A stretch of 64,000 nucleotides of DNA from an uncultured Pseudomonadales bacterium. GTDB lineage: Bacteria > Pseudomonadota > Gammaproteobacteria > Pseudomonadales > Pseudohongiellaceae. Below are positions 49,870 through 64,000 of this stretch, in pieces. Numbering within the stretch: position 1 is the stretch's first letter; every line of letters begins with the position of its first letter. Below the pieces are notes generated by a model that did no database searches, was not told where the DNA came from, and saw only the letters and a list, made by a program, of their open reading frames with translations. The stretch lies in assembly GCA_943842505.1 (NCBI GenBank), contig CALTDI010000011.1:62001-126000 (forward strand). The letters run 5' to 3'. A program made the position numbers and the translations under genes.

Positions 49870-50400
49870 GTGAGTAATGTAGCAAGGGCAGGGGAAAAAG
49901 AGACTTCCGAAGCAACGAGAAAATATCGGATAATTAATTCGAGATTCTTATTGTCTATCAGCTTTCTGCTTTCACTGTTGTTCAGTCCACTACTTGCAGC
50001 TCAGCATAATATGCACGGCATGTCCAACAGCGGTGGTTTGCTAGATTCAAGTATGCCGGCCGACAATGAGGTGCTTGCCAGGGCCCCTCAATCGATCATG
50101 CTGAATTTTGCGTCTGAAGTGCGGCTTGTGAAGCTAGCCCTAAAAGAAACCAAGCAGGGTGAGATTCTTATCGATTTCCGTTACGACCCTCAAGCAGCTA
50201 TGCGCTATATGCAGAAATTGCCGATGCTAGCGGCAGCCGATTATTATAAGGTCGAGTGGGCCGCACTCAGGGCATCGGGTGAACTCGTTAGAGGTAGTTT
50301 CTATTTTTCATTTGGTGATAATGCCAAGCCCCCATCTGAATACATGAATGAGATGGATCATGAAATGATGATCATGGCGCCGGATTATCGATTGCTCTAA
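49870..50400 (+). CDS. CopC-like periplasmic copper-binding protein
   Basis: The about 176-aa product has an N-terminal membrane/signal segment (about 29-42) ending near LLAAQ and a mature N-terminus HNMHGMSN, rich in His and Met as in copper-binding CopC/YobA proteins. The rest fits the CopC beta-barrel: PADNEVLARAPQSIMLNF, VRLVKLAL, YYKVEWAALRASGELVRGSFYFSFG. It ends with a Met-rich tail. GTG at 49870 with TAGGGAG upstream is preferred to the TTG at 49849. Placement right after cassette 2 suggests copper supply to its product. Confidence 0.75.
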   Translation: MSNVARAGEKETSEATRKYRIINSRFLLSISFLLSLLFSPLLAAQHNMHGMSNSGGLLDSSMPADNEVLARAPQSIMLNFASEVRLVKLALKETKQGEILIDFRYDPQAAMRYMQKLPMLAAADYYKVEWAALRASGELVRGSFYFSFGDNAKPPSEYMNEMDHEMMIMAPDYRLL

Positions 50401-50467
50401 TCATTGTTCGAAAATAAATCTGGAACTTCGCCAGCTTCATCTGCTGCTATTTGAGCGCCCATTACAA

Positions 50468-50770
50468 TCAGCGCTTAGCTGACATCTGTGCGCTTCTTTC
50501 ATTGCTGCATTCATAGGAGCCCATCTTAAATTCTCGACAGATCAGGGGGCGATTTTCATAGATCGAACACTTCAGGGTTTCACGGTCTAGGGCTGAGCAC
50601 CAGCCGTCCTCTAAACGTAACATCGTTTCTGCGCCCCATTCATCGACTGCAATATGAACATCCGGAACACCTGTGTCACTTATAATCATGACCTCTAAGC
50701 GGCAGCAGCAAGCCTGACAGTTCGAGCAGCTGATTTCGGTTTTGGATAGATTTTTACTTTTAATAGTCAT
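50468..50770 (-). CDS. YkgJ-family cysteine-cluster protein
   Basis: The 100-aa product has the cysteine cluster CSNCQACCC (about 15-23), WCSALD, LKCSIYENRPLICREF and a final YEC, the pattern of the YkgJ/UPF0153 family proposed to bind zinc or iron-sulfur. Function unknown. It is cytoplasmic, without signal peptide. Confidence 0.8.
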   Translation of the reverse strand: MTIKSKNLSKTEISCSNCQACCCRLEVMIISDTGVPDVHIAVDEWGAETMLRLEDGWCSALDRETLKCSIYENRPLICREFKMGSYECSNERSAQMSAKR

Positions 50771-50876
50771 GTAGTTAATCGATAAAAATAATCGGCTGTC
50801 TTCTTAAGTTCTTAAGTTAAAAATAGTAGATATTGGCTTGTGTTGGCAGCACAGATCCAGCGTTTCAAAGAATAAG

Positions 50877-51047
50877 TCAGTGATCGGTTGAGTCATCTGA
50901 CTTTGCCTTCGACGCGATGCCGACAACTATAAAGACTATACCTATGGGGATAAGCTCAGATCTGTCGTTGCCGAATATACTGGGCAACATGAGCAAGACC
51001 CCTCCCAAGATCCAAAGTAGGGACGTGTGCTTTTCAAATCCAATCAT
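50877..51047 (-). CDS. 56-aa two-helix membrane protein
   Basis: ATG at 51047 to TGA at 50877-50879 encodes a peptide with two hydrophobic helices (LLWILGGVLLMLPSIFG and LIPIGIVFIVVGIA) joined by a polar turn NDRSE, and a charged C-terminus. AGAGGG lies immediately upstream, rather close to the ATG. It is a convincing small membrane protein; it lies between the cytochrome c gene and the YkgJ-type gene on the same strand. Function unknown. Confidence 0.55.
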   Translation of the reverse strand: MIGFEKHTSLLWILGGVLLMLPSIFGNDRSELIPIGIVFIVVGIASKAKSDDSTDH

Positions 51048-51081
51048 TCCCTCTTTAGCTTTAGCTACTAATTTTCATAAA

Positions 51082-51533
51082 TTATCGATTTACCCTGTGG
51101 CAGTTAACACAGCCGCCTGCAACTCGACCGGCAAAATAATAGCTGGGCGGGTCTAAGGCTGCAGTATTGCGGGCCTGTTCGACATCGCTCACAAATTCTT
51201 TCATAAAATCTTGTAGAAAGGGGTGGCTGGAACCTGCTTCGCCAGCTTGTAGATTAGACGCGATCCTCCGGATATTACCCAATGACCCCAATACTTGCTG
51301 CTGTTGAGCCGGTCGCACTACATTGTTTTCCGCTAGCGCCTGATCAAGTAGTTGTAGCTGAAACGCCATTTGTTCCATGCGTGAGCGTAACTCCTGGCCC
51401 GTGACGTATTTGAAATCGGGCGGATAGGTGATCGTACGAACAGCGCCCGCAAAATCGCTGCACCCACTAATAAGCATAATGGTCGAAAAAGTAGAAGTGA
51501 GCGCAGGATGCTGGGAAATCGTTGAATATTCAT
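51082..51533 (-). CDS. Cytochrome c lipoprotein with C-terminal haem site, apparently frameshifted near the N-terminus
   Basis: The main frame (51082-51477) encodes a helical protein ending in haem motif CVNCH, as in class II cytochromes c. Its first ATG gives only five residues before the lipobox LISGC, too short for a signal peptide. An overlapping frame from ATG 51533 gives MNIQRFPSILRSLLLF. Adding one base to the five-base A run (plus strand 51486-51490) joins them into a normal lipoprotein signal peptide ending FSTIMLISGC. So either a real frameshift or a homopolymer sequencing error is present. Confidence 0.65.
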
Positions 51534-51752
51534 AGAGGCAAGTTCCTTAAAACCTATAGTGGAAACTCAAGGCTGTTAGTTGCTGCTTCGAGATTCATAA
51601 AGTTTGGACATATAGCCGACGCGCTATTTTTCTCTGTGTTGGATCAAGTTTACCCGCCGCTTCGCACTTTTCAAACAAATAGTTCGGAAAGCGATCATCG
51701 AGAGATTTTAGATGCTGAAGGTTGCATGTATATCTCACTAAAACGCTGTGCT

Positions 51753-53291
51753 CTATATTTCTACCGCCACCTTATAAGTCGGATCTTCGATGATATTCAC
51801 GTCAATAATTTTCTCGGCATTCTTGAGCAGTTTTAGACAGTCCGGACTAAGGTGGCGCAGGTGTAACTCTTTGCCAGCCTTGAGATATCTTTCGGTGATC
51901 TTGTTAAGCGCCTCTATGCCTGACATGTCGTTCACGCGACTCTCCCTAAAATCGATAATCACGGTGTCTGGGTCGTTGATGACGTCGAACTTCTCCGCAA
52001 AGGCTTGGGTCGAACCAAAGAATAGTGGGCCATAAATTTCGTAGTGTTTGGTGCCGACGTCATCTACGTATTTTCTGGCACGAATGCGTTTGGCGTTTTC
52101 CCAGGCGAATACCAGCGCGGAAATAATCACTCCGATCAATACGGCCAGGGCAAGATTGTGCAGCAACACAGTGATAGCTGCGACCAGAAAGCCCACCAGG
52201 TTGTCACGCGCTGGCATCTTGCCGATAGCCCTTATGCTGGCCCATTCGAAGGTGCCAATAGCTACCATGATCATCAGGCCAGTCAGGGCTGCTATGGGCA
52301 TTCTCTCGATATACTCGGCGCCAAACATAATGAATATTAGCAGCATGACAGAGGCTACGATCCCCGATAGTCGAGCTCTAGCGCCAGATGAAATATTGAT
52401 AAGACTCTGGCCTATCATGGCGCAGCCACCCATACCTGAAAACAGTCCGGTAACAAAATTTGCCATTCCCTGAGCCACCGCTTCCCGATTACTCTTGCCT
52501 CGTGTCTGGGTTATTTCATCGATTAGATTAAGCGTGAGCAGGCTCTCTATCAAACCGACACCGGCTACGATGAAGGCGTAGGGAAAGATGATGTTCAGAG
52601 TTTCGAGGGTAAAGGGCACATCCGGGATATGAAAAGGTGGGAAGCCGCCCTGTATGGAGCTGATGTCACCAACGTTACGTGTGTCCAAGTCGAAGCCGAG
52701 AACAATTGCGGTTACTGTCAATATGGCTGCTAAGGATGCTGGGATTGCCTTGGTGATTTTAGGCAGACCCCAGATAATAGTCATAGTAAGCAGGACTAAG
52801 CCGAGCATGGTATTGAGCTGTGGCCCTAGCATCCATTCGAGCTCACCGTCGCTGCCCGGGGTTTTGAAGGACGCCAGTTGGGCAAGGAAGATAACGATAG
52901 CGAGTCCATTTACGAAGCCAAACATGACGGGGTGCGGAACCAGGCGGATAAATTTGCCTAGCTTGAGAAAGCCGGCCGTCATCTGAATAATTCCGGCTAG
53001 TATCACTGTGGCGAAGATATATTCGACCCCGTGGCTCTGTGCGAGGCTAACAATCACCACGGCGATTGCGCCGGTGGCGCCGGAGATCATGCCCGGTCGG
53101 CCTCCAAATACAGAAGTAATTAGGCCGACGCTGAAGGCCGCATAGAGCCCGGTCAGCGGGGAAAGTCCTGCGATTAGCGCAAAGGCGATGGCTTCCGGAA
53201 TCAACGCAAGAGAGACTGTTATTCCGGAGAGTACTTCATTGAGGACATTAATTTTATTCGAACGGTCGAACAGGTTAAAAACGTAATTCAT
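51753..53291 (-). CDS. SulP-family inorganic anion transporter with STAS domain
   Basis: The about 512-aa product has the SulP membrane domain starting NEVLSGITVSLALIPEAIAFA and including GRPGMISGATGAIAVVI, with 12-14 helices, and a C-terminal STAS domain (VIIDFRESRVNDMSGIEAL). Substrate could be bicarbonate, sulfate or another anion; it cannot be told by eye. The ATG at 53291 (MNYVFNLF) is preferred; in-frame TTG/ATG codons at 53327/53321 would add about 12 residues without helices. Confidence 0.9.
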   Translation of the reverse strand: MNYVFNLFDRSNKINVLNEVLSGITVSLALIPEAIAFALIAGLSPLTGLYAAFSVGLITSVFGGRPGMISGATGAIAVVIVSLAQSHGVEYIFATVILAGIIQMTAGFLKLGKFIRLVPHPVMFGFVNGLAIVIFLAQLASFKTPGSDGELEWMLGPQLNTMLGLVLLTMTIIWGLPKITKAIPASLAAILTVTAIVLGFDLDTRNVGDISSIQGGFPPFHIPDVPFTLETLNIIFPYAFIVAGVGLIESLLTLNLIDEITQTRGKSNREAVAQGMANFVTGLFSGMGGCAMIGQSLINISSGARARLSGIVASVMLLIFIMFGAEYIERMPIAALTGLMIMVAIGTFEWASIRAIGKMPARDNLVGFLVAAITVLLHNLALAVLIGVIISALVFAWENAKRIRARKYVDDVGTKHYEIYGPLFFGSTQAFAEKFDVINDPDTVIIDFRESRVNDMSGIEALNKITERYLKAGKELHLRHLSPDCLKLLKNAEKIIDVNIIEDPTYKVAVEI

Positions 53292-53653
53292 GTAGGTGTT
53301 TCTTAATCCAATAGCATGCATAACCAAAAAACACGGTGCTTTTGGTTGTTCTAGTACTTGAGATCTTTGGGAGAGGCCGGTTTAGAAGGCCACCTTTGGG
53401 ATGGGGAAGTACAACAAGGGCGCGTACTCTACTACATAAGAGGGTCGGAGGGTACCTGCAAGTAAGTCTGTGTGATGGGGCGCTGTTTATAGCTTAGAGT
53501 TTTCTTTGTGCTAAGAGGCCATCTATTGCGAAATACATGGCTCCTAATCGTCAGCGCATTCTCATTGCGTGTAGTCTAAATGAACATTAGCGTAAAGGTT
53601 GCAGATCGGGCACACTTCACCTGCAAAGGAATAGGGATAGGCTAGCTTCGGAC
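53292..53653. other. Divergent intergenic region between the SulP and phosphoesterase genes
   Basis: No gene seen. An 8-base inverted repeat AACCAAAA / TTTTGGTT (about 53322-53347) lies at the upstream edge of the SulP gene and could be an operator or leader hairpin. Nothing else recognised. Confidence 0.4.
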
Positions 53654-54505
53654 ATGAACATACTACACATCTCGGACATGCATTTTGGTCCGCGCCATTG
53701 GCAAGGCAATAACAAGTTGCTGCTGGAGAAATTGAACAGCTATTCGGCAGATCTTCTGATAAACACTGGCGATAACACTACAGATGCCCTCGAGAACGAG
53801 TTCGAAGCCGTAGGCAGCTTTCTGGAGTCGGTTGATTGCCAGCACATCATTTCGATCCCGGGAAATCACGATAAACGCAATATGCGCAGTGCCGATTATT
53901 TCCGTCAGTATATCGAGGACATAGACGTCCTGCGGCCACTAGATCGCGAAAATTGCAGAAAGAAAGGTATTTTCCTTGACGCTAATGTCAATGGCATAAA
54001 AGACCATTTTACCGATATCAACTTTCTTAAAAATATCACAATCGACGGTGAGTCTGTGCTGGTAGTCTGTCTAGACTCCAGTGAGCTCTATGAAGACAAC
54101 GGTTTTATAGATCCGGAAATGCTGAGAACAGTATCTGATGCAATTAGTAAGGCGACTTACGACCGGATAATACTTCTGAATCACCATCCCATCCTAGATA
54201 CGGATTCAGACCCGCTCTTCAATTCCAGAACCGTTATAGCATTCGTAATAAAGCACAATATAGAACACTTCTTCTGTGGGCATTCCCATCAGCTGTCGAT
54301 CATGAGATCTACTGATCTGTATCACAATCATTCCTTCACTCAATACAAGAATGGTTCGCTATCGAGCGCCAATACTCCAAGCGATACCAATATGTTTATG
54401 TACTACAAAAATTTTGGCTCAGAAGAAATGAACATTCATGTCGTTCGGGCGATTGTTGATGGTGACTCCCTGAATTTCAAAGAAGAAGTAATTGCCGTTA
54501 ACTAG
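53654..54505 (+). CDS. Metallophosphoesterase (CpdA/Icc-like)
   Basis: The 283-aa product has all five metal motifs of calcineurin-like phosphoesterases: DMHFG (8-12), GDN, GNHDK, NHHP and GHSHQ. No signal peptide, so cytoplasmic. Size and motif spacing fit class III cyclic nucleotide phosphodiesterases, but other phosphodiesters are possible. The MFS gene begins 15 bp after it, so the two are probably co-transcribed. Confidence 0.85.
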   Translation: MNILHISDMHFGPRHWQGNNKLLLEKLNSYSADLLINTGDNTTDALENEFEAVGSFLESVDCQHIISIPGNHDKRNMRSADYFRQYIEDIDVLRPLDRENCRKKGIFLDANVNGIKDHFTDINFLKNITIDGESVLVVCLDSSELYEDNGFIDPEMLRTVSDAISKATYDRIILLNHHPILDTDSDPLFNSRTVIAFVIKHNIEHFFCGHSHQLSIMRSTDLYHNHSFTQYKNGSLSSANTPSDTNMFMYYKNFGSEEMNIHVVRAIVDGDSLNFKEEVIAVN

Positions 54506-54520
54506 AGCAACACTACAATC

Positions 54521-55846
54521 ATGAGCAGCCTGGGCGCGCCGAACTTAGCTTGGGAAATGCGTATCGTCGTTAGTATGTGCCTGGGCTACGGGATGTTAAT
54601 GCTTTGTAGAACGGTGGTAGGTGTCGCCGGGCCTGCGATGTTAGCTGACCCGACACTCACACTCGACACCGCGACGTTTGGAGCCATTCTTGGCTGGGGT
54701 ACGGCTGGTAACTTAACCGGCAAGCTCACAACAGGGGTTCTTGCCGACAGGCTTGGTGGTAGTAAGGTATTTGTCTGGGCTGTCGGTCTGGCGGCGGCCG
54801 CGACATTTGTATTTGGTAGTCTATCGAGCAATATCGCTTTCTTTGCACTCTATTTTCTCACGGTATTTGCCAAGTCTGCCGGTTGGCCGGCGATGGCGAA
54901 CATCATTCGAGTCTGTTTTGACCAGGCCAAGCATGGTCGTGTATGGGGCTTTATCGCCACAAGCTCTAGAGTAAGTTCGGTTGCAACTACTCTACTCGTT
55001 AGCAGTCTGCTTCTCATCATGTCATGGAGAGGCCTGTTTTACATGGCAGGGGCGCTGGCATTTTTGGGTGCCTTCATCTTGCCCCGATATCTAAGAGACT
55101 CTTGGAAGAGTACAGACGAAGTTGCGGACGAGCCGGAAGAGTCAACAGAAGTACTTTCGGCCCGGTCAGAAGATCATCCGCTCAGTAGAACCGAGACACG
55201 CGCCGCCATCACCGTTTTTCTAAGCAATCCAAGGTTCTGGCTAATAAGTCTTGGTGTTTCTTCGCTGGCGGTTCTGTTTGAGTTCCAGGTGTTCATTCCC
55301 ATTTATCTCAGTGAGACCTTTAGCCTGATACCGGCACAGGCGGGGATGGCGTCCTCGGCATTTCCATTGGGATGCCTGGTCGCAGTTTTCAGTGGCGGCT
55401 TCATCTACGACAAGCTTTCCAAGAAGAATATTGTCTATACGATGAGTGCCAGTCTACTTGTGGCTGTGTGTTGCCTGCTGGGTTTGCGGCTTCTTGGTGT
55501 CTATGATCTCGGCGCTACGCTGGAATTGGCAATGACTATCGGATTGATATTTGTTTTCGGCTTTGCGATCTCGCCGGCATATTACATCCCGATGAGCGTC
55601 TTTTCTATCGGCTTTGGTGGCAGGCACTGCGGCTTGCTGGTTGGGCTTATCGATGCCTTCGCTTATTTTGGCGCAATGATGTTCGACTTCATTGGTGGCG
55701 CGGTGGCAAACAAGGAAGGTGGCTGGCAGGATTTTATTCTTATATTAATTGTGACCTCGATCTTGGCGACAATTATCATGACCACATTCCTCTACCTGGA
55801 TTACCGTGATTCGGAACGTGATCTTGCCTCAGCGGTACTTGGCTAG
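54521..55846 (+). CDS. MFS transporter
   Basis: The 441-aa product has about 12 transmembrane helices with the loop 2-3 motif GVLADRLGGSKVF and a central polar loop (about 195-225). General layout recalls organophosphate:phosphate antiporters (GlpT/UhpT group), which would suit the co-transcribed phosphoesterase, but diagnostic residues were not verified. Substrate unknown. Confidence 0.82.
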   Translation: MSSLGAPNLAWEMRIVVSMCLGYGMLMLCRTVVGVAGPAMLADPTLTLDTATFGAILGWGTAGNLTGKLTTGVLADRLGGSKVFVWAVGLAAAATFVFGSLSSNIAFFALYFLTVFAKSAGWPAMANIIRVCFDQAKHGRVWGFIATSSRVSSVATTLLVSSLLLIMSWRGLFYMAGALAFLGAFILPRYLRDSWKSTDEVADEPEESTEVLSARSEDHPLSRTETRAAITVFLSNPRFWLISLGVSSLAVLFEFQVFIPIYLSETFSLIPAQAGMASSAFPLGCLVAVFSGGFIYDKLSKKNIVYTMSASLLVAVCCLLGLRLLGVYDLGATLELAMTIGLIFVFGFAISPAYYIPMSVFSIGFGGRHCGLLVGLIDAFAYFGAMMFDFIGGAVANKEGGWQDFILILIVTSILATIIMTTFLYLDYRDSERDLASAVLG

Positions 55847-56027
55847 AACAGATCGGCGGTTGCAAAGAAGCAATTTTATGCTGTTTTTTTGCCGGATTTA
55901 GGCGTTAACTTATCAATACCGAGCGCGAAGCTTTCAGCTGCGCTCAGGTATCTATTACCCTGAAAATTTCCGCTGCCTTTACAATAGCAGCCTCGTTACC
56001 ACCCATAATAAAAAGCAGGTAGACCGC

Positions 56028-56936
56028 ATGAAAACCAGAAGAACTCTGTTTGTCCTGACGCTCACGCTCCTTACTCTATGTTTGCCTCGGTTAACCTTAG
56101 CGCAGACCAAGATCTCCTACGGGCAGGATCCTATGCAGTATGGAGAGCTATCACTCCCTGAAGGTGATGGGCCATTCCCTGTTGTTACTTTTCTACATGC
56201 TGGCTGCTGGCGCTCAAGCGAGGCCATGATTAATAGTTACCGTGCAATGGCCGCGGCTATGCTTGAGCAGGGCGTTGCCGCCTGGAATATGCAGTATCGT
56301 GGAGCCACAAGCCCTGGTGGCGGCTGGCCAGGAACCTGGTTGGATATTGCCAACGGCTTTGATGCACTGGAAGAAATTGCGCAGAGTTACCCCATCGATC
56401 TACAGAAAGCGATCGTGGTGGGTCATTCCTCGGGCGGGCACTACGGTGCGTGGCTGGCAATGAGGTCGCAACTTCCTCCCAACAGTGAGATCTATGTGAA
56501 GCCCAAGGTGAACCCCATGGCGCTGGTAATGGCCGATGCCTATATCAATCCGCTATTGATTGACTCCATCGGTGATACTGGAGAGATTTACTGCGGTGAA
56601 CCCCTGCTGGAAAAGTTAGTGGGTGGCCCGGTGGAGGACAATATCAATAACTTCTTACAGATCTCGCCCCTGGAGTGGCTGCCGTGGGGAATCCCGCAGG
56701 ACTTCATAGTGAGTACCTATCGCTATCCGCTGTCATTGCCTCGTGTGCTGGCACAGGGTAAGACGTCGATGCGTAAAGTGCCGGATTATCCAGCGCTGGC
56801 TGTGCTCGCTGGCGATGAGATCAACGTGCGCCTGATTAGTAACGAAGGCCACGGTAATTTTGTGCGCGAGGGAGAACGTGGCTATTACGCGACAATCTCT
56901 GCCGTATTACGTTTGCTAGGTAAGATAACGGAATAA
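56028..56936 (+). CDS. Exported alpha/beta hydrolase (esterase/BD-FAE-like)
   Basis: The 302-aa product has a signal peptide ending near LTLAQ (about 26), the oxyanion loop LHAGCW and the nucleophile elbow GHSSGGHYG. GHGNF near the C-terminus supplies the likely histidine and GDEINV a likely acid. It resembles carboxylesterases of the BD-FAE/kynurenine-formamidase type. AGGTAG precedes the ATG. Substrate unknown. Confidence 0.82.
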   Translation: MKTRRTLFVLTLTLLTLCLPRLTLAQTKISYGQDPMQYGELSLPEGDGPFPVVTFLHAGCWRSSEAMINSYRAMAAAMLEQGVAAWNMQYRGATSPGGGWPGTWLDIANGFDALEEIAQSYPIDLQKAIVVGHSSGGHYGAWLAMRSQLPPNSEIYVKPKVNPMALVMADAYINPLLIDSIGDTGEIYCGEPLLEKLVGGPVEDNINNFLQISPLEWLPWGIPQDFIVSTYRYPLSLPRVLAQGKTSMRKVPDYPALAVLAGDEINVRLISNEGHGNFVREGERGYYATISAVLRLLGKITE

Positions 56937-56950
56937 TCAGAAAAATGAGA

Positions 56951-56986
56951 GTAGAGCAATAATACAGAATTGTATTATTGCTCTAC
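56951..56986. terminator. Sixteen-base perfect inverted repeat between convergent genes
   Basis: GTAGAGCAATAATACA (56951-56966) and its exact complement (56971-56986) flank a GAAT loop. It lies 14 bp past the hydrolase stop and 35 bp past the end of the convergent redoxin gene. It lacks a pure T-tract but its strength and position suit a bidirectional terminator. Confidence 0.6.
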
Positions 56987-57020
56987 TATGCTTGTTAGGC
57001 CCACTTCTTCTACGCGAGCA

Positions 57021-57554
57021 TCAGCATGATTCGAGGATTGAGAACAGCTGATCCATCGACGGGCGATCAATAGGTTCGTAACTAGGGTAGTTGAGACGCA
57101 ATACCCCCTTAGCATCTACGATAAAGTCCCCACCCAACTGGTTGAGATCGTCGGGCAACTTGCTTTTAGGTCTGGCCTTCCAATTGAGGAGATAGTACCA
57201 AATAGTTCTGGGGCTCCATGAGCGCAGGACAGAACGTTCAAGCCCGTAACGCTGATAAGCCTCCCTGTCCTCGTCCAGTAGGAGGGAGAATGGTGCGTTG
57301 GTCTCTTCCAGCCACACACGCGCAAAGGCTGGGGCGCTGAAAGAGACAATTAGCACTCTTACCTTGAGTCGATCCAAGTCTTGCTGGCGCTGACACAACT
57401 GTGCCACATGCTCTCGGCAGGGCAGTCAGCCTAGGTGTCTGAGGAAAATCATCAGAACACTTCGGTGCTCACCGATTTCGTCTGCTAGCGAAATGGAAGT
57501 GCCGTCTATCTTGGGTAGTTCGAAACGCGGGGCCTGGTTTCCAATTTTTAGCAT
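57021..57554 (-). CDS. Probable selenoprotein: AhpC/TSA_2 (SelU/PRXL2-like) thioredoxin-fold protein with UxxC
   Basis: From ATG 57554 (AAAGGA upstream) the frame reads MLKIGNQAPRFELPKIDG, then VLMIFLRHLG, then TGA at codon 43 (57426-57428), then LPCREHVAQL and 130 more residues to a normal stop. The family motif here is R-H-x-G-C-x-x-C-R-E, so TGA sits exactly at the first redox Cys, giving U43-L-P-C46. Downstream of TGA a hairpin TGGCAC (57406-57401) / GTGTCA (57396-57391) with loop AGTT starts its apical loop 25 nt from TGA, fitting bacterial SECIS spacing and the G-in-loop rule. The alternative is a Cys-to-stop pseudogene. It lies 38 bp after the PETase-like gene on the same strand. Confidence 0.75.
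57391..57428 (-). promoter_or_regulatory. Candidate bacterial SECIS element with UGA
   Basis: UGA codon (57428-57426), a 19-nt spacer, then a six-base stem with one G-U pair and a 4-nt apical loop AGUU having G at its second position. Apical loop begins 25 nt after UGA. The stem is short, so experimental or covariation support would matter. Confidence 0.55.
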
Positions 57555-57592
57555 GGGCTGTCCTTTCTATTCCTAGACACTGTTCTTACTTA

Positions 57593-58480
57593 CTACTCTT
57601 GCTCGGAAAATTCCCATCTCGATAGCCTCTCTCGGTCGCTCGCTGGCATTTCTCCAAACACCAGTTCCCGATAATTCTCATCGCTATCGACAAACAATTT
57701 TAACCAGGCCACGCCCATACCGCCCACCAGGTCGTGTACATCTATGTTGGGTGTAAGCCTTTCGCCGCCGGTATCTGTATTGGCAATGAAGTGATTGCCC
57801 CCCTTTATCTCGAGATACATTTTCGGGATGCCGTCGGAGAGGCTCGCGAAATGAGGCGAAGCATGGTCGAGCACGGGCGCGATGCGATCGATCTCGCCGG
57901 CGATGATTAAGGTGGGAATTGATACGGCACTAAAGTCAGCGTCAGGTTGCCAAGGTGTGAAGGGTATTGCAGCTTTCAATTCGGCGCTATGTGCGTTTGC
58001 CGCAAGCAGGGTGCCGCCACCTCCCATGGAGTGCCCCATGATTGCCATGCGATCCTTGTGAATCTTTCCTCGCAACGTGCTGCCCATGCGGTCACCCTCA
58101 TTACGGAGCACTTCTATTGCCGCCATCAAGGCATCCGCGCGCAGAGACGGATTGTCGCGTAACTCATTGGTATCGAGGGTCAACACGGCGAAGCCGTGAG
58201 AGGCAAGATGCCGTCCCCACCAGCTCATATTTTCCTGTGATTCGACGAAACCGGGAGATATGGCTACGCCTGCGAAGTCTTCTCCCTTATTGGCGGGAAA
58301 ATAAATAGTCGCCGCACTAAATTCGGGTACTGGCGGGTAGCTTGAATAGTAGGCAACCTGATAAGGCCCAGGTCTGCCCAGAGATTCTCTGGAGATCTCT
58401 TGCGCCGAGACGTTAACCCAGAATGAGAAAGTCAGGGCAATGCATAGCAGGTATTGGATTCTATTCGTCATTTTATTCAT
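57593..58480 (-). CDS. Exported cutinase/PET-hydrolase-like polyesterase
   Basis: The 295-aa product has a signal peptide ending near NVSAQ (about 27). The mature enzyme follows the cutinase/PETase pattern: SPGF oxyanion loop (F78), WWGRHLASHGF, DTN, nucleophile elbow GHSMGGGG (S151), TPW (W177), acid in GEIDRIAP (D198) and histidine in GGNHF (H230). The elbow has His before Ser, as in actinobacterial cutinases. No cysteine occurs in the mature part, so neither disulfide of known PETases can form. The start lies 2 bp after the GDSL esterase gene stop, so the two are coupled. Polyester activity is inferred. Confidence 0.85.
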   Translation of the reverse strand: MNKMTNRIQYLLCIALTFSFWVNVSAQEISRESLGRPGPYQVAYYSSYPPVPEFSAATIYFPANKGEDFAGVAISPGFVESQENMSWWGRHLASHGFAVLTLDTNELRDNPSLRADALMAAIEVLRNEGDRMGSTLRGKIHKDRMAIMGHSMGGGGTLLAANAHSAELKAAIPFTPWQPDADFSAVSIPTLIIAGEIDRIAPVLDHASPHFASLSDGIPKMYLEIKGGNHFIANTDTGGERLTPNIDVHDLVGGMGVAWLKLFVDSDENYRELVFGEMPASDRERLSRWEFSEQE

Positions 58481-58482
58481 TA

Positions 58483-59316
58483 CTAGTTATGCCCCATAGC
58501 GGTTAGTACAAGTCGCGCCATCTCAATATGCCCCTCGGCTGTAGGATGGTAGCGAATGCCGGTGTCGGCAACAGCATTGCCATTGACCCAGCGCTCCGCC
58601 GCCGCGCAGGGACCGTGACCTGCTGCGCGTACATAGGCATCGGCGATAAGAATCTGATGGTTAGCTGCGGTGCTCACGAAGGTGTCTTCGAGTTGCTGTC
58701 CCAGTGTGGCCAGGTAGTTGGTGTCCTCGGCGCTCAGTTCAAGCTCGCTGCAGTTTGCTGCATCTTCGGGGAAGACGCGGGGGTAGGCTACTAGCACGAT
58801 GGTTGCTTGTGGTGCCCTAGCCTTGATCGCATCGAAGGTCGCGCCAAGCTTGGCGGGTAGCTGATTTACAGCCGCGCTGATCGCTGCCTGATCGAGGTTG
58901 GCAGTGCAGCGCTCGCTAGGGGCAGTTCCTGCGCAGGCGAAAGTCGATGATGTGTAGTTAATGTCGTTGCCGCCGATAGTGACCGTCACTAGCGCCGTGT
59001 CAGGGCCTATGGCGTCAATCTGGGGGGCGGCTCCATTTTGAGGAGTGTCGAGAATATTGTCAGTAGTCGCACCGTTGCAGCTCACATCAATCAGATTGAG
59101 ATCAAGAGCGGTGGCTATTAGGTTCGGATAGTTGTGATCCGAACGCCCGCATACCCCTAATGGCTCGGGAATGCCAGGGCCGGCAGCGAATGAGCTACCT
59201 AGCGCGACATAGTTGGCACCCCGCGCCAATGCTGCAGCGGGCGCGCTCTGGGAGAGGGCTGTAGATGCTGTGAGTAGAGCACAGCCCAGTGTAATTAAGT
59301 TAACTAGCTTACCCAT
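58483..59316 (-). CDS. Exported SGNH/GDSL-family esterase
   Basis: The about 277-aa product has a signal peptide ending near STALSQ (about 23). Block I reads ALGSSFAAGPG (nucleophile S42; the Asp of GDS is Ser), block III IGGNDI (N118) and block V YHPTAEGH near the C-terminus. Cysteine pairs (CGRS/SCNG, FACAG/RCTAN) suggest disulfides as in Streptomyces-type lipases. ATG at 59316 is chosen because GAGGAG lies 6 bases upstream, formed from the codons of a possible earlier ATG at 59334. First gene of the esterase-PETase-like-selenoprotein run. Confidence 0.85.
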   Translation of the reverse strand: MGKLVNLITLGCALLTASTALSQSAPAAALARGANYVALGSSFAAGPGIPEPLGVCGRSDHNYPNLIATALDLNLIDVSCNGATTDNILDTPQNGAAPQIDAIGPDTALVTVTIGGNDINYTSSTFACAGTAPSERCTANLDQAAISAAVNQLPAKLGATFDAIKARAPQATIVLVAYPRVFPEDAANCSELELSAEDTNYLATLGQQLEDTFVSTAANHQILIADAYVRAAGHGPCAAAERWVNGNAVADTGIRYHPTAEGHIEMARLVLTAMGHN

Positions 59317-59449
59317 AGAGATCTCCTCGATCATTAATCTAGACTATCAACAGAGGTATAGCTCGGCCACTTCACCACCCGCTGGGAGAGAGTCACTTTT
59401 GTCGTGCGCGTTTTACAGTGTTGAAATATACCACCAAAGAAGAATCAAG

Positions 59450-59539
59450 ATGGGCGTAAGTATGATGCTCATGATGGCCGTTATGGCGATCATTTTACTG
59501 GCCCACAACCTTTTCATCCGTGATCCTCGCAGCCCGTAG
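59450..59539 (+). CDS. Possible 29-aa single-helix membrane peptide
   Basis: ATG at 59450 to TAG at 59537-59539 encodes MGVSMMLMMAVMAIILLA then a basic tail ending FIRDPRSP. Met-rich hydrophobic helix; a purine-rich AAGAAGAA stretch lies about 8 bases upstream. It sits between the divergent GDSL gene and the IS element. No homology claim. Confidence 0.3.
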   Translation: MGVSMMLMMAVMAIILLAHNLFIRDPRSP

Positions 59540-59648
59540 CTGACGATTGGAACTACACCGCACCGTTGTTCAAGCTGTGTATGTCGTCAGATGATTTGGG
59601 ACTACTCGCCTCAAAAACTAAAGGAGACATTTGCAGTATAGCTTTCAG

Positions 59649-60636
59649 TTAGTGAGCTGAACAAGCCATAAGGTTTTCCTCCTTCCTGCGCTGCAGGGTC
59701 TGCTGTTTAATAAACTCTCTTCGGCTCATGATCTCTTCGTAACGTCCATAGAACATGTCTGCAGGTGTCACGTTATCCAGCGACTCGTGATACCGCCGGT
59801 GATTTTAGTAATCCACGAACTGCTGTATCGCCTTCTCCAGTTCCCACGGGTAATAATAGTTCTCCAGCTTCACCACATTCTTCATTGAGCGATGATAGCG
59901 TTCGATCTTTCCCTGAGTCTGCGGGTGATAGGGTGCACCCCGAGTGTGCTCCATCTTCTGCTCGGCCAGATATTCCTTCAGTTCTTTCGACAGATAGCAC
60001 GGCCCATTATCACTGAGCAGCCGAGGCCGGTGTTTCATCACTACCTGACCTACTCCTGTTTTCTCAATGGCGTCATCCAATGTGAGTTTTACATCGTCAG
60101 CACTCATGGTAGTCGTCAGCTTCCAGCTGATGATGTATCGGGAGTAGTCATCCAGTACTATCGATAGAAAGTACCAGCCCCATCCAGCGATCTTGAAGTA
60201 GGTAAAGTCCGTCTGCCACAGCTCGTTTATACGCTTGGTGGGCGTGTGAAACTTGTCACCAGCCTGCAGCAGAATATAGGCAGGACTCGTGATCAGGTCA
60301 TATTGCTTCAACAGCCTATAAACACTGGACTCGGAGATGAAGTACTCGTGCTGATCGGTGATATGCCAAGCTAGCTCTCGAGGGGGATAATTCGGGGTGT
60401 TCCAGAGCAACTTCAAGACACTGCGCTTTCACGCTCTCCGGCAACTTATTCCAGAACTGCTCTGGAGACTTGCTGCTGGAGAGCAGCCCCTCGTAGCCGT
60501 GATCCCGGTAAGCTTTATACCAGCGGTAGAATGTACTCCGGTTTACATCTAACTCTTCCAGAGTGCGCCTTACTGATAGCTCAGACTCCTCAACCAGCCG
60601 TATCACCTCATACTTCTCTGAGGTCGACAGCGTCAT
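59649..60636 (-). pseudogene. IS3-family transposase orfB, disrupted
   Basis: DDE integrase with QTDFTYFK, LSDNGPCY and GKIERYHRS carrying the three acidic residues. Reading is broken twice: an extra base in a C run (plus-strand G5 at 60382-60386) shifts frame after EHPELSP, and TAA at 59805-59807 interrupts DYxNHRRYHESL. The frame then continues to TAA at 59649-59651. A start-overlapping ATGA joins it to orfA. Confidence 0.85.
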
Positions 60637-60992
60637 TCGTCGTCCCAGATCGACCCCGAGCCAAGCACACTTTTTTTGAGCACGTTGTTCTTCAGCATCG
60701 TCTCAGCCAGCATCTGCTTGAGGTGACCATTCTCTTTCTTGAGATCGGTTACTTCTCGGCTATTGGCCTGGCGTTTAGTATCGCCTGCAAGGCGCTGCTT
60801 CCCAGCCTCGAGAAATTCCTTCGACCAGCTGTAATACTGGCTGGCAGCAATGCCTTCTCTGCGGCACAACTCAGCGATAGATTCTTCTCCACGCAGACCT
60901 TCCAGGACAATACGGATTTTCTCTTCGGGTTCGTGCTTCTTGCGGGTTTTGCGCCGAATGGCTTTAACGAGTGCTTCAGGTGTATCGGTCAT
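60633..60992 (-). CDS. IS3-family transposase orfA
   Basis: A 119-aa helix-turn-helix protein (EEKIRIVLEGLRGEESIAELCRREGIAASQYYSWSKEF region) with a C-terminal leucine-zipper-like coiled coil. An A7G run (complement of 60670-60677) near its end is a typical -1 slippery site, and shifting there leads into orfB. Intact, but the element as a whole is probably inactive. Confidence 0.85.
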   Translation of the reverse strand: MTDTPEALVKAIRRKTRKKHEPEEKIRIVLEGLRGEESIAELCRREGIAASQYYSWSKEFLEAGKQRLAGDTKRQANSREVTDLKKENGHLKQMLAETMLKNNVLKKSVLGSGSIWDDE

Positions 60993-61115
60993 AAGTGACT
61001 CCTGTATTCATTATTGAATGTATCAGAAGTCTCCCTTAGGATTTAAGGCTGATTGGTCCCATATGTTCTGACGGGATACAATACTCAAAATCTTTCTGAT
61101 CACAGGGTAGTAGTT

Positions 61116-61601
61116 ATGTCGCGTTTCTCTCTATACGCAAGCAGTGCCGCCAAGTTGTTGACCGAGCATAATCACTCGATTTCGGTGGCGGAATCTTCTA
61201 CAGGAGGTTTGATCGCAGCAAGCTTGCTTTCTGTCCCCGGCGCCTCGCGTTATTTTATGGGCGGCACGGTTATCTATACCATCAAGTCACGCCGGGCGTT
61301 CCTTAACCTGGATAGAGAGCGCATAAAAACGCTGAAACCCCTAACAGAAGAAATGGCCCTTGAGTTCGCGAGAGCTGCCCGAGCTAAACTGGATACTACC
61401 TGGGGTATTGCCGAGCTCGGGGTAGCAGGGCCGGGAGGCACACCCTATAGCGATGCCATAGGAATTAGCGTGATAGCCATATCGGGCCCGGTCGATGGTT
61501 CGGTGATCGTTAAGACACAGTCAGGGGATCGTGAGGAGAACATGGAGGTCTTTACTGACAGGGCATTGCAATTACTCGTGCAGACTCTTGCTTCCATTTG
61601 A
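61116..61601 (+). CDS. CinA C-terminal domain protein (nicotinamide-nucleotide amidohydrolase-like)
   Basis: PncC/CinA-C family proteins deamidate nicotinamide mononucleotide in NAD recycling. The 161-aa product has SVAESSTGGLIAASLLSVPGASRYFMGG (the family usually has AESCTGG, so Cys is Ser here), TEEMALEFARAAR and AELGVAGPGG. An in-frame start at 61053 would lie in the IS end, so the ATG at 61116 is used. Ribosome-binding site is weak. Insertion of the IS just upstream may have altered its promoter. Confidence 0.82.
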   Translation: MSRFSLYASSAAKLLTEHNHSISVAESSTGGLIAASLLSVPGASRYFMGGTVIYTIKSRRAFLNLDRERIKTLKPLTEEMALEFARAARAKLDTTWGIAELGVAGPGGTPYSDAIGISVIAISGPVDGSVIVKTQSGDREENMEVFTDRALQLLVQTLASI

Positions 61602-62031
61602 GCCTGGAATGAGATCTACGTAATTGGGAAGATGGGGAGCTGCAGAAGGAAACGTTAATTGCAGTATTCGACAGCATTGATTGTTTGGTCTATCGATCCA
61701 CCTTTGCGCTCCAGCGCCACAGATGCCCATCTGACATAAATCATTAGGCAGTTTTGCTCTTTCCGGGAGGCCGGGAAAACGGTAGAGAACTTTCAGCTGT
61801 ACAGTGGAGTCAGTGGACGGCAGATAATCATAGTCTGTTGCTCCGGGTTCAGGCAGGCATCAACGGCTTATTTGTCACTGCCTCCAACTATTTCAATCTG
61901 TATTCGCACAATGCCGGCAATTATTGTATTTTTGGCACTGGGCTTCAGTCTGAAATGGACCGACAGATCAAGACGTACGGTTTTCGTAGGAGTGGAATTG
62001 ATTACTAACATCTACCAAGCAGGCATTATTT
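61602..62031. other. 430-bp intergenic region between the CinA-C and quinoprotein genes
   Basis: Short overlapping frames exist (61754-62008 and 61872-62066) with hydrophobic stretches but no ribosome-binding site or family match; the second overlaps the quinoprotein start. No terminator or operator recognised. Confidence 0.4.
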
Positions 62032-63708
62032 ATGTTTTTTTACTCTCGTCTTCAAGCAAGCTTTAGATTCTATCTGTCCCTGGCTGCCTTACTTAGTCTG
62101 GGCCTAACCGCTGCCCAGTCAGGCCTGGCTCAAGAACCGGTCGCAGAAGACGGAATCGAGGACTGGATCCTGGCGTCCATGTGCGCGGCGGATAATCGTT
62201 CGGTAGACCTGAGTCAGGCGCCATCCTTTACTTTTACGGGAGCCGATGGCAACAACCCGCGCCATCTCGATGCCGCACAGGCGGGTCTCACCACAGCGGA
62301 CATGTCAAATCTGGAACTGGCCTGGGCGATCGCCTTCCCGGATACATCCAGCATGCGTGCCGCGCCGGTGATCGTAGGCTCGACAATTTTCTATTCTGCC
62401 ACCGACTCGGGTCGCGTCTTTGCGCTGGATACCAATAGCGGCTGCGCAAAGTGGGTCTATGCTGCCGATACGCGTTTGCGTTCTTCAATGGCCTACGCCG
62501 AAATAGAGGGCGCAGGTACGCTGGTGTTTGGTGACCAACGGGGCATGATTCATACCCTCAACGCGGAGACTGGTGAGGTGAACTGGGTCGCTAGCGGTCA
62601 AGCCACTAACAACCAGGCAATGATTACCGGCACACCTGTTATTTCTGGTGACAAGATAATCGTTCCGCTTTCCGGTTCCGGCGTTGTAACCGGCGGAAAC
62701 CCGAACTTTGAATGCTGTGACAACCACGGCGCAGTCACCGCGTTGAATGTGCTTACCGGCGAAAAACTGTGGGAATACCACACCATGCCAGCGGCTGACT
62801 ATACTGGCATGGTTAGCTCCACCGGTGTCAAACAGCGTGGCCCCTCAGGCGCACCAATCTGGACTACGCCGACGATTGATACGCAGCGAGGCCAGGTCTA
62901 CGTCACCACTGGCGAAAACACCTCACACCCCACTACCGGTACTAGCGACTCGGTTATCGCCCTGAACCTGGAGACAGGCGAGGAAAACTGGGTCTTTCAG
63001 GCGCTAGAGAATGATATGTGGAATTTCTCTTGCAGCGCCGCGGGCCCGAATTGCATCATTTTGGCTGATACCAATTCCGTCGATTTCGATTTTGGTGGCC
63101 CAGCTATTTTGGTAGAAACAGACGACAGAGAACTTTTGATCGCCGGCCAGAAATCCGGCGATCTCTGGGCTCTGGATCCGGTCACCGGGGCGGTGGTCTG
63201 GAATCAGCGCGTCGGTGAAGGAACAGCACTAGGAGGCAACCACTGGGGCATAGCCACCGATTCCGAGCGCGCCTTCATGACTATCAACGATCCTGGCAAT
63301 ATGGCCGAGAATAACCAGCCGGGTCTTTACACTTACTTTGTCGGTACCGGCGAGCCAAGCTGGTCTTATGAGGTGCAGCCGGAATGCAACGACGAGCGCA
63401 GCGACAGGCTTAGACGCTGTGAATCACTCTATGGTTTTTCTGCCACGCCGTTGTCTGTGGACGGAGCTGTCATCACTGCAGGGCTGGACGGGCGTCTGTT
63501 TATATTTAATTCAGATACAGGCGAGCAGCTGTTTCAATACGATACCGTAGTGGATTTCGAAACGGTGAACGCAGTGGAGGGCTATGGTGGTTCGATCGAT
63601 AGTCATTCCATCGCCGCAGGATCGGGAATGGTGTTTGTGGGTTCCGGTTACGGTTCGTTCAGTCAGGTACCGGGTAACGTATTATTGGCTTTCAAACCCT
63701 CGGAGTAA
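62032..63708 (+). CDS. Exported PQQ-type beta-propeller, polyvinyl-alcohol-dehydrogenase-like
   Basis: The 558-aa product has a signal peptide ending near SGLAQ (about 34) and a quinoprotein beta-propeller with repeated GxVxALDxxTGxxxW blades. Specific similarity to PVA dehydrogenase is seen in FECCDNHGAVTALN (vicinal cysteines), GPSGAPIWTTPTID, TTGENTSHPTTGTSDSVIALN, DFDFGGPAIL and AGQKSGDLWALDP. The fused cytochrome c domain of classical PVA dehydrogenase is absent; only a lone Cys in SMCAADN remains where it would sit. It probably oxidises an alcohol in the periplasm and hands electrons to a separate cytochrome. Confidence 0.8.
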   Translation: MFFYSRLQASFRFYLSLAALLSLGLTAAQSGLAQEPVAEDGIEDWILASMCAADNRSVDLSQAPSFTFTGADGNNPRHLDAAQAGLTTADMSNLELAWAIAFPDTSSMRAAPVIVGSTIFYSATDSGRVFALDTNSGCAKWVYAADTRLRSSMAYAEIEGAGTLVFGDQRGMIHTLNAETGEVNWVASGQATNNQAMITGTPVISGDKIIVPLSGSGVVTGGNPNFECCDNHGAVTALNVLTGEKLWEYHTMPAADYTGMVSSTGVKQRGPSGAPIWTTPTIDTQRGQVYVTTGENTSHPTTGTSDSVIALNLETGEENWVFQALENDMWNFSCSAAGPNCIILADTNSVDFDFGGPAILVETDDRELLIAGQKSGDLWALDPVTGAVVWNQRVGEGTALGGNHWGIATDSERAFMTINDPGNMAENNQPGLYTYFVGTGEPSWSYEVQPECNDERSDRLRRCESLYGFSATPLSVDGAVITAGLDGRLFIFNSDTGEQLFQYDTVVDFETVNAVEGYGGSIDSHSIAAGSGMVFVGSGYGSFSQVPGNVLLAFKPSE

Positions 63709-64000
63709 CGATATCTCGCTCAGTACCTAAGATAGAAAATTTGGCGTATAAATTTTGGACCGTAGGTGCTGACTAGTTTGCTATCCATTGCTATGAAAAC
63801 CGCAATACGTCAAATCTATATTGCTACTGCCTTTGAGTTTTAAGCAAAGGGGATAGCCATAGGGAAAGTAAGCGATACAGCACTCTTTCTTTTGTAACTA
63901 CTAACTCGGCAATTCCGGGAGTTTAGTCCAATCTTTTATGCTACTCCAGACTCGACTAGCTGTGCCTACAGTGAGATGGGAAGCTGGAAGTAGATGCTCA
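63709..64000. other. Trailing intergenic sequence
   Basis: No supported gene, RNA or terminator in the last 292 bases; only very short frames are present. Confidence 0.5.

Follow-up and report, generated by a model that had tools for sequence, protein, structure and literature searches.

SelL, which has been termed a Prx-like protein (PMC2398784), is described as a protein of aquatic animals and marine bacteria with two selenocysteine (Sec) residues, two residues apart, that form a diselenide (PMC3316567, PMC2397514). Many bacterial Prx-like selenoproteins with a UxxC, UxxU or UxxS motif are tabulated in excerpts of survey papers (PMC9312934, PMC13188914, PMC2398784, PMC1088965), the UxxC and UxxU types under PF00578, a UxxC type under redoxin and the UxxS type under cd02970 (PMC13188914, PMC9312934, PMC2398784), and a "ULPU-containing selenoprotein" is mentioned, again in excerpt, for 26 organisms (PMC5029168). 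The gene analyzed here lies in the window, by which we mean the whole stretch of DNA that was analyzed (64,000 nucleotides), and its predicted product has the same domain and motif types as the tabulated Prx-like proteins and the ULPU protein, to which we liken it by their descriptions in these excerpts.

The window protein matches PF00578 (AhpC-TSA) with an E-value of 3.1e-17 and PF13911 (AhpC-TSA_2) with 2.5e-14, and over residues 7-172 it scores 145.8 bits against NCBIfam NF040769, the SelL-related redox protein, for which the curated cut-off is 120. From this family, whose model name makes no mention of Sec, it differs in nothing that was tested, and among the other members over the cut-off some have Sec and some Cys at the column of U43. 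SelL proper has the motif UxxU and two Sec, whereas the window protein reads ULPC, a UxxC motif with one Sec, and so is not SelL itself; four relatives of the window gene read ULHU, and these were set beside SelL by its published descriptions. The initial annotation had called the product SelU-like, which seems reasonable to the extent that the protein also belongs to AhpC-TSA_2 and that U43 and C46 fall on the CxxC of prostamide/prostaglandin F synthase (9us9), an enzyme we take to be linked with the names PRXL2 and SelU. The relation is a distant one (single-sequence E 0.0024, profile E 3.3e-17), and the closest curated family, in which the protein is better placed, is NF040769.

In classical peroxiredoxins the motif is T/SxxC or TxxU: the peroxidatic residue comes last, and three positions before it there is neither Sec nor Cys. 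The TxxU form in peroxiredoxin appears in an excerpt of PMC1088965. The window protein departs from this pattern with its UxxC, and in the profile alignment to the Bcp-type peroxiredoxin 2cx3 (E 6.7e-21) its C46 lies on the Cys of SPVC and its U43 on the Ser. No selenoprotein paper was among the literature matches listed for the motif strings or for the name and accession of NF040769. Judged by comparison with its relatives, the window gene is very probably a true selenoprotein gene that is itself new, of a kind that is already known, since the surveys, as far as excerpted, list Prx-like UxxC, UxxU and UxxS selenoproteins as well as SelL in marine bacteria. The earlier claim of a new selenoprotein thus stands for the gene and fails for the kind, which NF040769 and the Prx-like selenoproteins already represent.

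The reading frame and the TGA column in relatives

On the minus strand, from 57554 down to 57021, translation from ATG meets TGA at codon 43 and continues in the same frame to a terminal TGA; reading the one internal TGA as Sec gives 177 residues, with FLRHLG-U-LPC-REHVAQLC as the active-site stretch (Table 1); the plus strand over the same positions contains many stops when read in frame. The initial annotation had the coordinates right and had left the strand unstated, and its placing of TGA at the first Cys of RHLG-[C]-xx-C-RE agrees with the translation, RHLG-U-LP-C-RE. It had also foreseen that an ORF caller would miss the true start, and the mechanical ORF list indeed opens the gene at codon 50, an internal GTG, for an ORF of 128 residues. 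Such a call begins 3' of the catalytic residue, so that the active site is lost from annotation made in this way.

Table 1. Features of the selenoprotein locus, in window coordinates.
Feature	Position	Strand	Basis
Probable selenoprotein gene, SelL-related, AhpC-TSA / AhpC-TSA_2 domain, 177 residues, U43	57021..57554	-	Translation, Pfam, NF040769
In-frame TGA, codon 43, read as selenocysteine	57426..57428	-	TGA/Cys column in homologues
Cys46, partner of Sec43 in UxxC	57417..57419	-	Invariant C46 column; TGA in four relatives
Predicted bSECIS core hairpin UGGCAC-AGUU-GUGUCA, loop 25 nt after UGA	57391..57406	-	Pair counts, Sec/Cys contrast, frozen codons; without single-sequence energy support
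Probable ribosome binding site AAAGGA, purine-rich, just 5' of ATG	57561..57566	-	By eye
Inverted repeat between convergent genes, probable bidirectional terminator	56950..56987		By eye

Two other readings of TGA in this frame were considered. A second Sec at the terminal TGA was rejected, and this codon is taken as an ordinary stop because the closest homologue (86% identity, below) has TAA there. That TGA is reassigned throughout the genome seems unlikely, since ORFs called with the standard code look ordinary in window positions 50000-64000. In the neighborhood, a gene for a PET hydrolase-like protein (57593-58480, minus strand; PF12740, E 1.6e-68) lies 38 bp upstream on the same strand and perhaps shares one transcript with the selenoprotein gene; it is adjoined by a GDSL lipase gene (58483-59334), and about 2 kb from the selenoprotein gene, at 59805-60992 (minus strand), the ORF list contains frames that by eye resemble pieces of an IS3-type transposase.

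A scan of genome contigs yielded 18 homologous loci from 17 MAG records, titled as Gammaproteobacteria, Poribacteria, Dehalococcoidia, Dehalococcoidales, Anaerolineae, other Chloroflexota and one "bacterium", and all 18 carry TGA at the position of codon 43, an agreement beyond what chance would give. Two gammaproteobacterial loci encode proteins 86% and 72% identical to the window protein, and all others fall between 45 and 59% (best segment). EHVAQLCQ was among the peptide patterns used to fetch these loci, so the amino-acid sameness across them is partly selected; the DNA patterns are described as degenerate, which leaves the codon and pairing tests below less exposed to that selection. Two loci of one MAG read ULHU and are thus double-Sec forms (L055:2501-3022 and L062:2501-3025), and in two further loci, L064 and L065, the frame is broken further downstream of TGA, by decay or by assembly error.

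The comparison of homologues at this column, proposed in the initial annotation, also covered members of the NF040769 family. From the phylum of the Anaerolineales-titled carrier (L054), 400 genomes were sampled; 68 gave a match to NF040769 at E 1e-20 and 32 a match over its cut-off, with 33 matches over the cut-off to choose from; among the 30 of these that were read, the codon-43 column holds TGA in 19 (one being L054 again) and a Cys codon in 11. An in-frame UGA at the redox-Cys column, as expected of a bacterial selenoprotein, is shared by homologues. Alignment A5 (48 rows, Sec entered as Cys) shows no variation in the Cys46 column, and TGA occupies this column, making the motif UxxU, in L055, L062, L142 and L155. 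Outside these genomes, 22 stretches of viral contigs matched a pattern and none was confirmed as a relative, and the plasmids searched gave one distant relative (28%).

Past codon 43, the window gene differs from its 86% homologue at 15 first, 6 second and 49 third codon positions (49 of 70 differences in the third), and from the 72% homologue at 25, 12 and 69, respectively. This is the substitution pattern of coding sequence, and it indicates that the gene is under selection beyond the UGA. A sequencing error and an internal start were likewise rejected, on the same pattern and on the TGA common to the homologues.

The hairpin downstream of UGA

After UGA come 25 nt and then an AGUU loop (57397-57400) closed by the stem UGGCAC/GUGUCA, just as the initial annotation had described it. 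A hairpin with G in its apical loop shortly after UGA, a further mark of a bacterial selenoprotein, is present, with no support from single-sequence energy: when the window's own 51-nt stretch is shuffled, 174 of 200 versions fold at least as well as the original (z +0.98), so that the hairpin is shown by comparison and not by energy.

In alignment A2 (20 sequences), stem columns 23-28 are fully paired with columns 33-38, and two pairs are changed on both sides, both of them in L078. Alignment A3 contains 34 Sec genes without gaps, from which four Sec genes with the hairpin in another register (L139, L143, L147 and L148) were left out, a choice that favors the structure, along with L133, a duplicate of L054 (same place); six of its seven pairs show changes on both sides, in 29 cells. 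None of 500 shuffles attained the fraction paired (88.2%), the number of changed cells or the covariation score (0.388); 15 attained the count of pairs with both sides changed and 16 the count of pair types. Registers slid along the alignment are 15-63% paired with scores of at most 0.162, and at the slide of +2 there are likewise 6 changed pairs, spread over 12 cells. Of the 34 genes, 10 keep the outermost pair and 24 do not. Kinship of the sequences can inflate the result of such a shuffle test, for which reason genes with Cys are the better control, and in 11 Cys genes the same stem stays at the level of shuffles.

In a separate count the stem goes with Sec: at least 5 bp in the fixed register are found in 32 of 38 Sec genes (L139, L143, L147 and L148 included, L054 dropped as a duplicate) and in none of 20 genes with Cys, of which 11 score above and 9 below the NF040769 cut-off. 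Six Sec genes are exceptions: in four of them a hairpin of 7 bp stands in a neighboring register, and L155 and L157 keep 3 and 4 bp; four of the 20 Cys genes have some hairpin of 6-7 bp in the searched stretch, out of register. The hairpin of L139, L143, L147 and L148, all of which come from the 400-genome phylum sample, has a shifted register and a different loop.

Four codons that overlie the hairpin are almost frozen in the 18 A2 sequences used for this test (L064 and L065 omitted). Counting rows with the respective residue, V50 is GTG in 17/17, A51 is GCA in 17/18, Q52 is CAG in 18/18 and L53 is TTG in 18/18, against a mean normalized codon entropy of 0.87 (lowest value 0.36) in 40 other conserved columns. 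Codons 50-55 as a whole, of which 54 and 55 are not frozen, differ from these 40 columns outside codons 44-56 with p = 0.005 (one-sided Mann-Whitney). The NF040769 family can thus be regarded as a natural experiment, with Sec or Cys at one column and a hairpin in register in most Sec genes and in no Cys gene.

Selenocysteine machinery and alternative readings

The genome that contains the window has selB (394 bits), selA (571 bits) and selD (282 bits) over their curated cut-offs, and so possesses the three genes expected together where a bacterial selenoprotein is made. The search for sel genes called for by the initial annotation is thereby answered for these three; selC was not found in the assembly (94% complete, 26 contigs), where the best Rfam tRNA-Sec hit among the 150 of 243 first-look candidates scored reached 45.7 bits vs. 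47 and lay on a tRNA-Leu, and where a tRNA-Sec DNA query from the same genus gave 14-base matches only. In other sampled genomes of the genus, tRNA-Sec exceeds the gathering score in 19 of 24, the five without it being 65-89% complete. It is also found in 15 of 18 carrier genomes, both same-genus carriers among them, with none at E 1e-8 in the remaining 3 (this search omitted L062, of the same named MAG as L055). We take the absence from the window's own assembly as a probable assembly gap.

A second frame with in-frame TGA, of the redoxin/AhpC-TSA type with motif FDW-U-PYC and an N-terminal extension, lies on contig 4 of the same genome at about 233963-234610 (L163:1964-2611, plus strand). 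Its UGA is followed by the 6-bp hairpin TCAGCT-CGTGC-AGCTGA, with the loop from 20 nt after UGA, and the protein falls below every NCBIfam cut-off that it matched. Judged by its own sequence, this is a probable second selenoprotein of the genome.

Taken together, the homologues, the covarying hairpin, the coding substitutions and the selA, selB and selD genes support the proposal of the initial annotation that Sec is inserted, and we consider it highly likely that the product is a SelL-related selenoprotein of the peroxiredoxin-like group with a thioredoxin fold and that SelB and the hairpin direct insertion at UGA codon 43. SelB carrying Sec-tRNA-Sec would bind the hairpin just 3' of UGA and, so bound, would bring about Sec incorporation at this codon, making Sec43 the first and Cys46 the second position of a CxxC-like motif. 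In established thioredoxin chemistry the first-position Sec of a UxxC motif is the nucleophile. From this and from the profile alignments to 9us9 and 2cx3, the Sec43 selenolate would be expected to attack a peroxide or disulfide, after which Cys46 would close a Sec43-Cys46 selenenylsulfide that thioredoxin or a similar donor would reduce. The protein would act in the cytosol, as no signal sequence is obvious by eye.

A pseudogene, in which a Cys codon mutated to TGA and the remainder is decaying or starts at the internal GTG, would agree with the split frame of the ORF list and with the frames broken downstream in L064 and L065. The TGA common to all 18 loci speaks strongly against it, as do the preponderance of third-position differences, the lack of any other stop in the window frame and the covariation of the SECIS. 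Of the outcomes that the initial annotation had named as pointing to a pseudogene, a genome without sel genes or a decayed gene, neither was found, save that selC is missing from this assembly, and we regard this reading as extremely improbable. It is somewhat easier to imagine, and still very unlikely, that the gene is a selenoprotein gene by descent in a strain that has lost selC and now makes a truncated peptide only. The failure of both the Rfam model and the DNA query to find tRNA-Sec fits such a loss, and so do the five same-genus genomes without a hit; set against this are selA, selB and selD genes that are open and over cut-off, a second selenoprotein frame that has been kept, and the incompleteness of the assembly and, more markedly, of those five genomes.

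Both of these alternatives concern Sec itself. Whether the protein is a peroxidase in the manner of PRXL2/SelU or peroxiredoxin, and not a protein disulfide reductase, is a matter of substrate, so its probability is not to be added to theirs, and we consider the chances about even. The profile matches to 2cx3, in which we take the Cys of SPVC to be the peroxidatic residue, and to 9us9 favor a peroxidase, but the order UxxC is like that of thioredoxin-like reductases and ResA (3c71, E 7.2e-17) matches too; sequence alone does not tell the two apart. For selenocysteine insertion at codon 43, the preferred reading, this choice makes no difference.

Distribution and descent

Genes of the NF040769 family were found in 3 of 84 genomes of the genus, all with TGA (the other two carriers are L048 and L049, the same places as hits in G701 and G704), so that the Sec gene was found in few genomes of a genus where most of those sampled carry tRNA-Sec. 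Matches over the cut-off are rare in Pseudomonadota, at 2 of 369 genomes in a class sample and 1 of 398 in a phylum sample, the window's own genome counted in both. The tree, of 48 proteins and rooted at the midpoint, omits L064, L065, L082, L083, L087, L143, L150-L153 and the duplicate L133; it has 12 forks open and two long branches (L136, L160). In it the two gammaproteobacterial genes join the window gene first (support 99/92) and L050 next (100/99). This group sits in a set of 20 Sec genes (95/96), and outside the group the named rows of that set are Chloroflexota and a single Poribacteria MAG. Since the gene was found in 3 of 84 genomes of the genus and the closest relatives beyond it belong to Chloroflexota, a Poribacteria MAG and one "bacterium" record, the gene was probably acquired horizontally, by a lineage in which Sec was already in use.

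Sec and Cys labels require four changes on the tree, at least three of them forced by well-supported branches; L156 (Cys, 1 bp in register), for example, is sister to L158 (Sec, 8 bp). Single- and double-Sec forms occur side by side in the same family, and as the double-Sec ULHU forms occupy two clades that are separate and well supported, more than one interchange between UxxC and UxxU seems to have taken place. We tentatively suggest, as a reading that we hold to be less likely than not, that the RHLGULPCRE proteins form a clade of SelL-related selenoproteins whose SECIS core is near-invariant in sequence across Chloroflexota, the Poribacteria MAG and Gammaproteobacteria and which may move between phyla as a ready-made Sec gene, within a wider family where Sec and Cys, and UxxC and ULHU, would have been interchanged more than once; no description of such a clade was met in the literature excerpts and search listings consulted. 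Beside the 86% homologue, L048:789-2207 (minus strand) holds a DUF3179 gene without an in-frame TGA; DUF3179 is listed, in an excerpt of PMC9312934, as a UxxC/T selenoprotein family.
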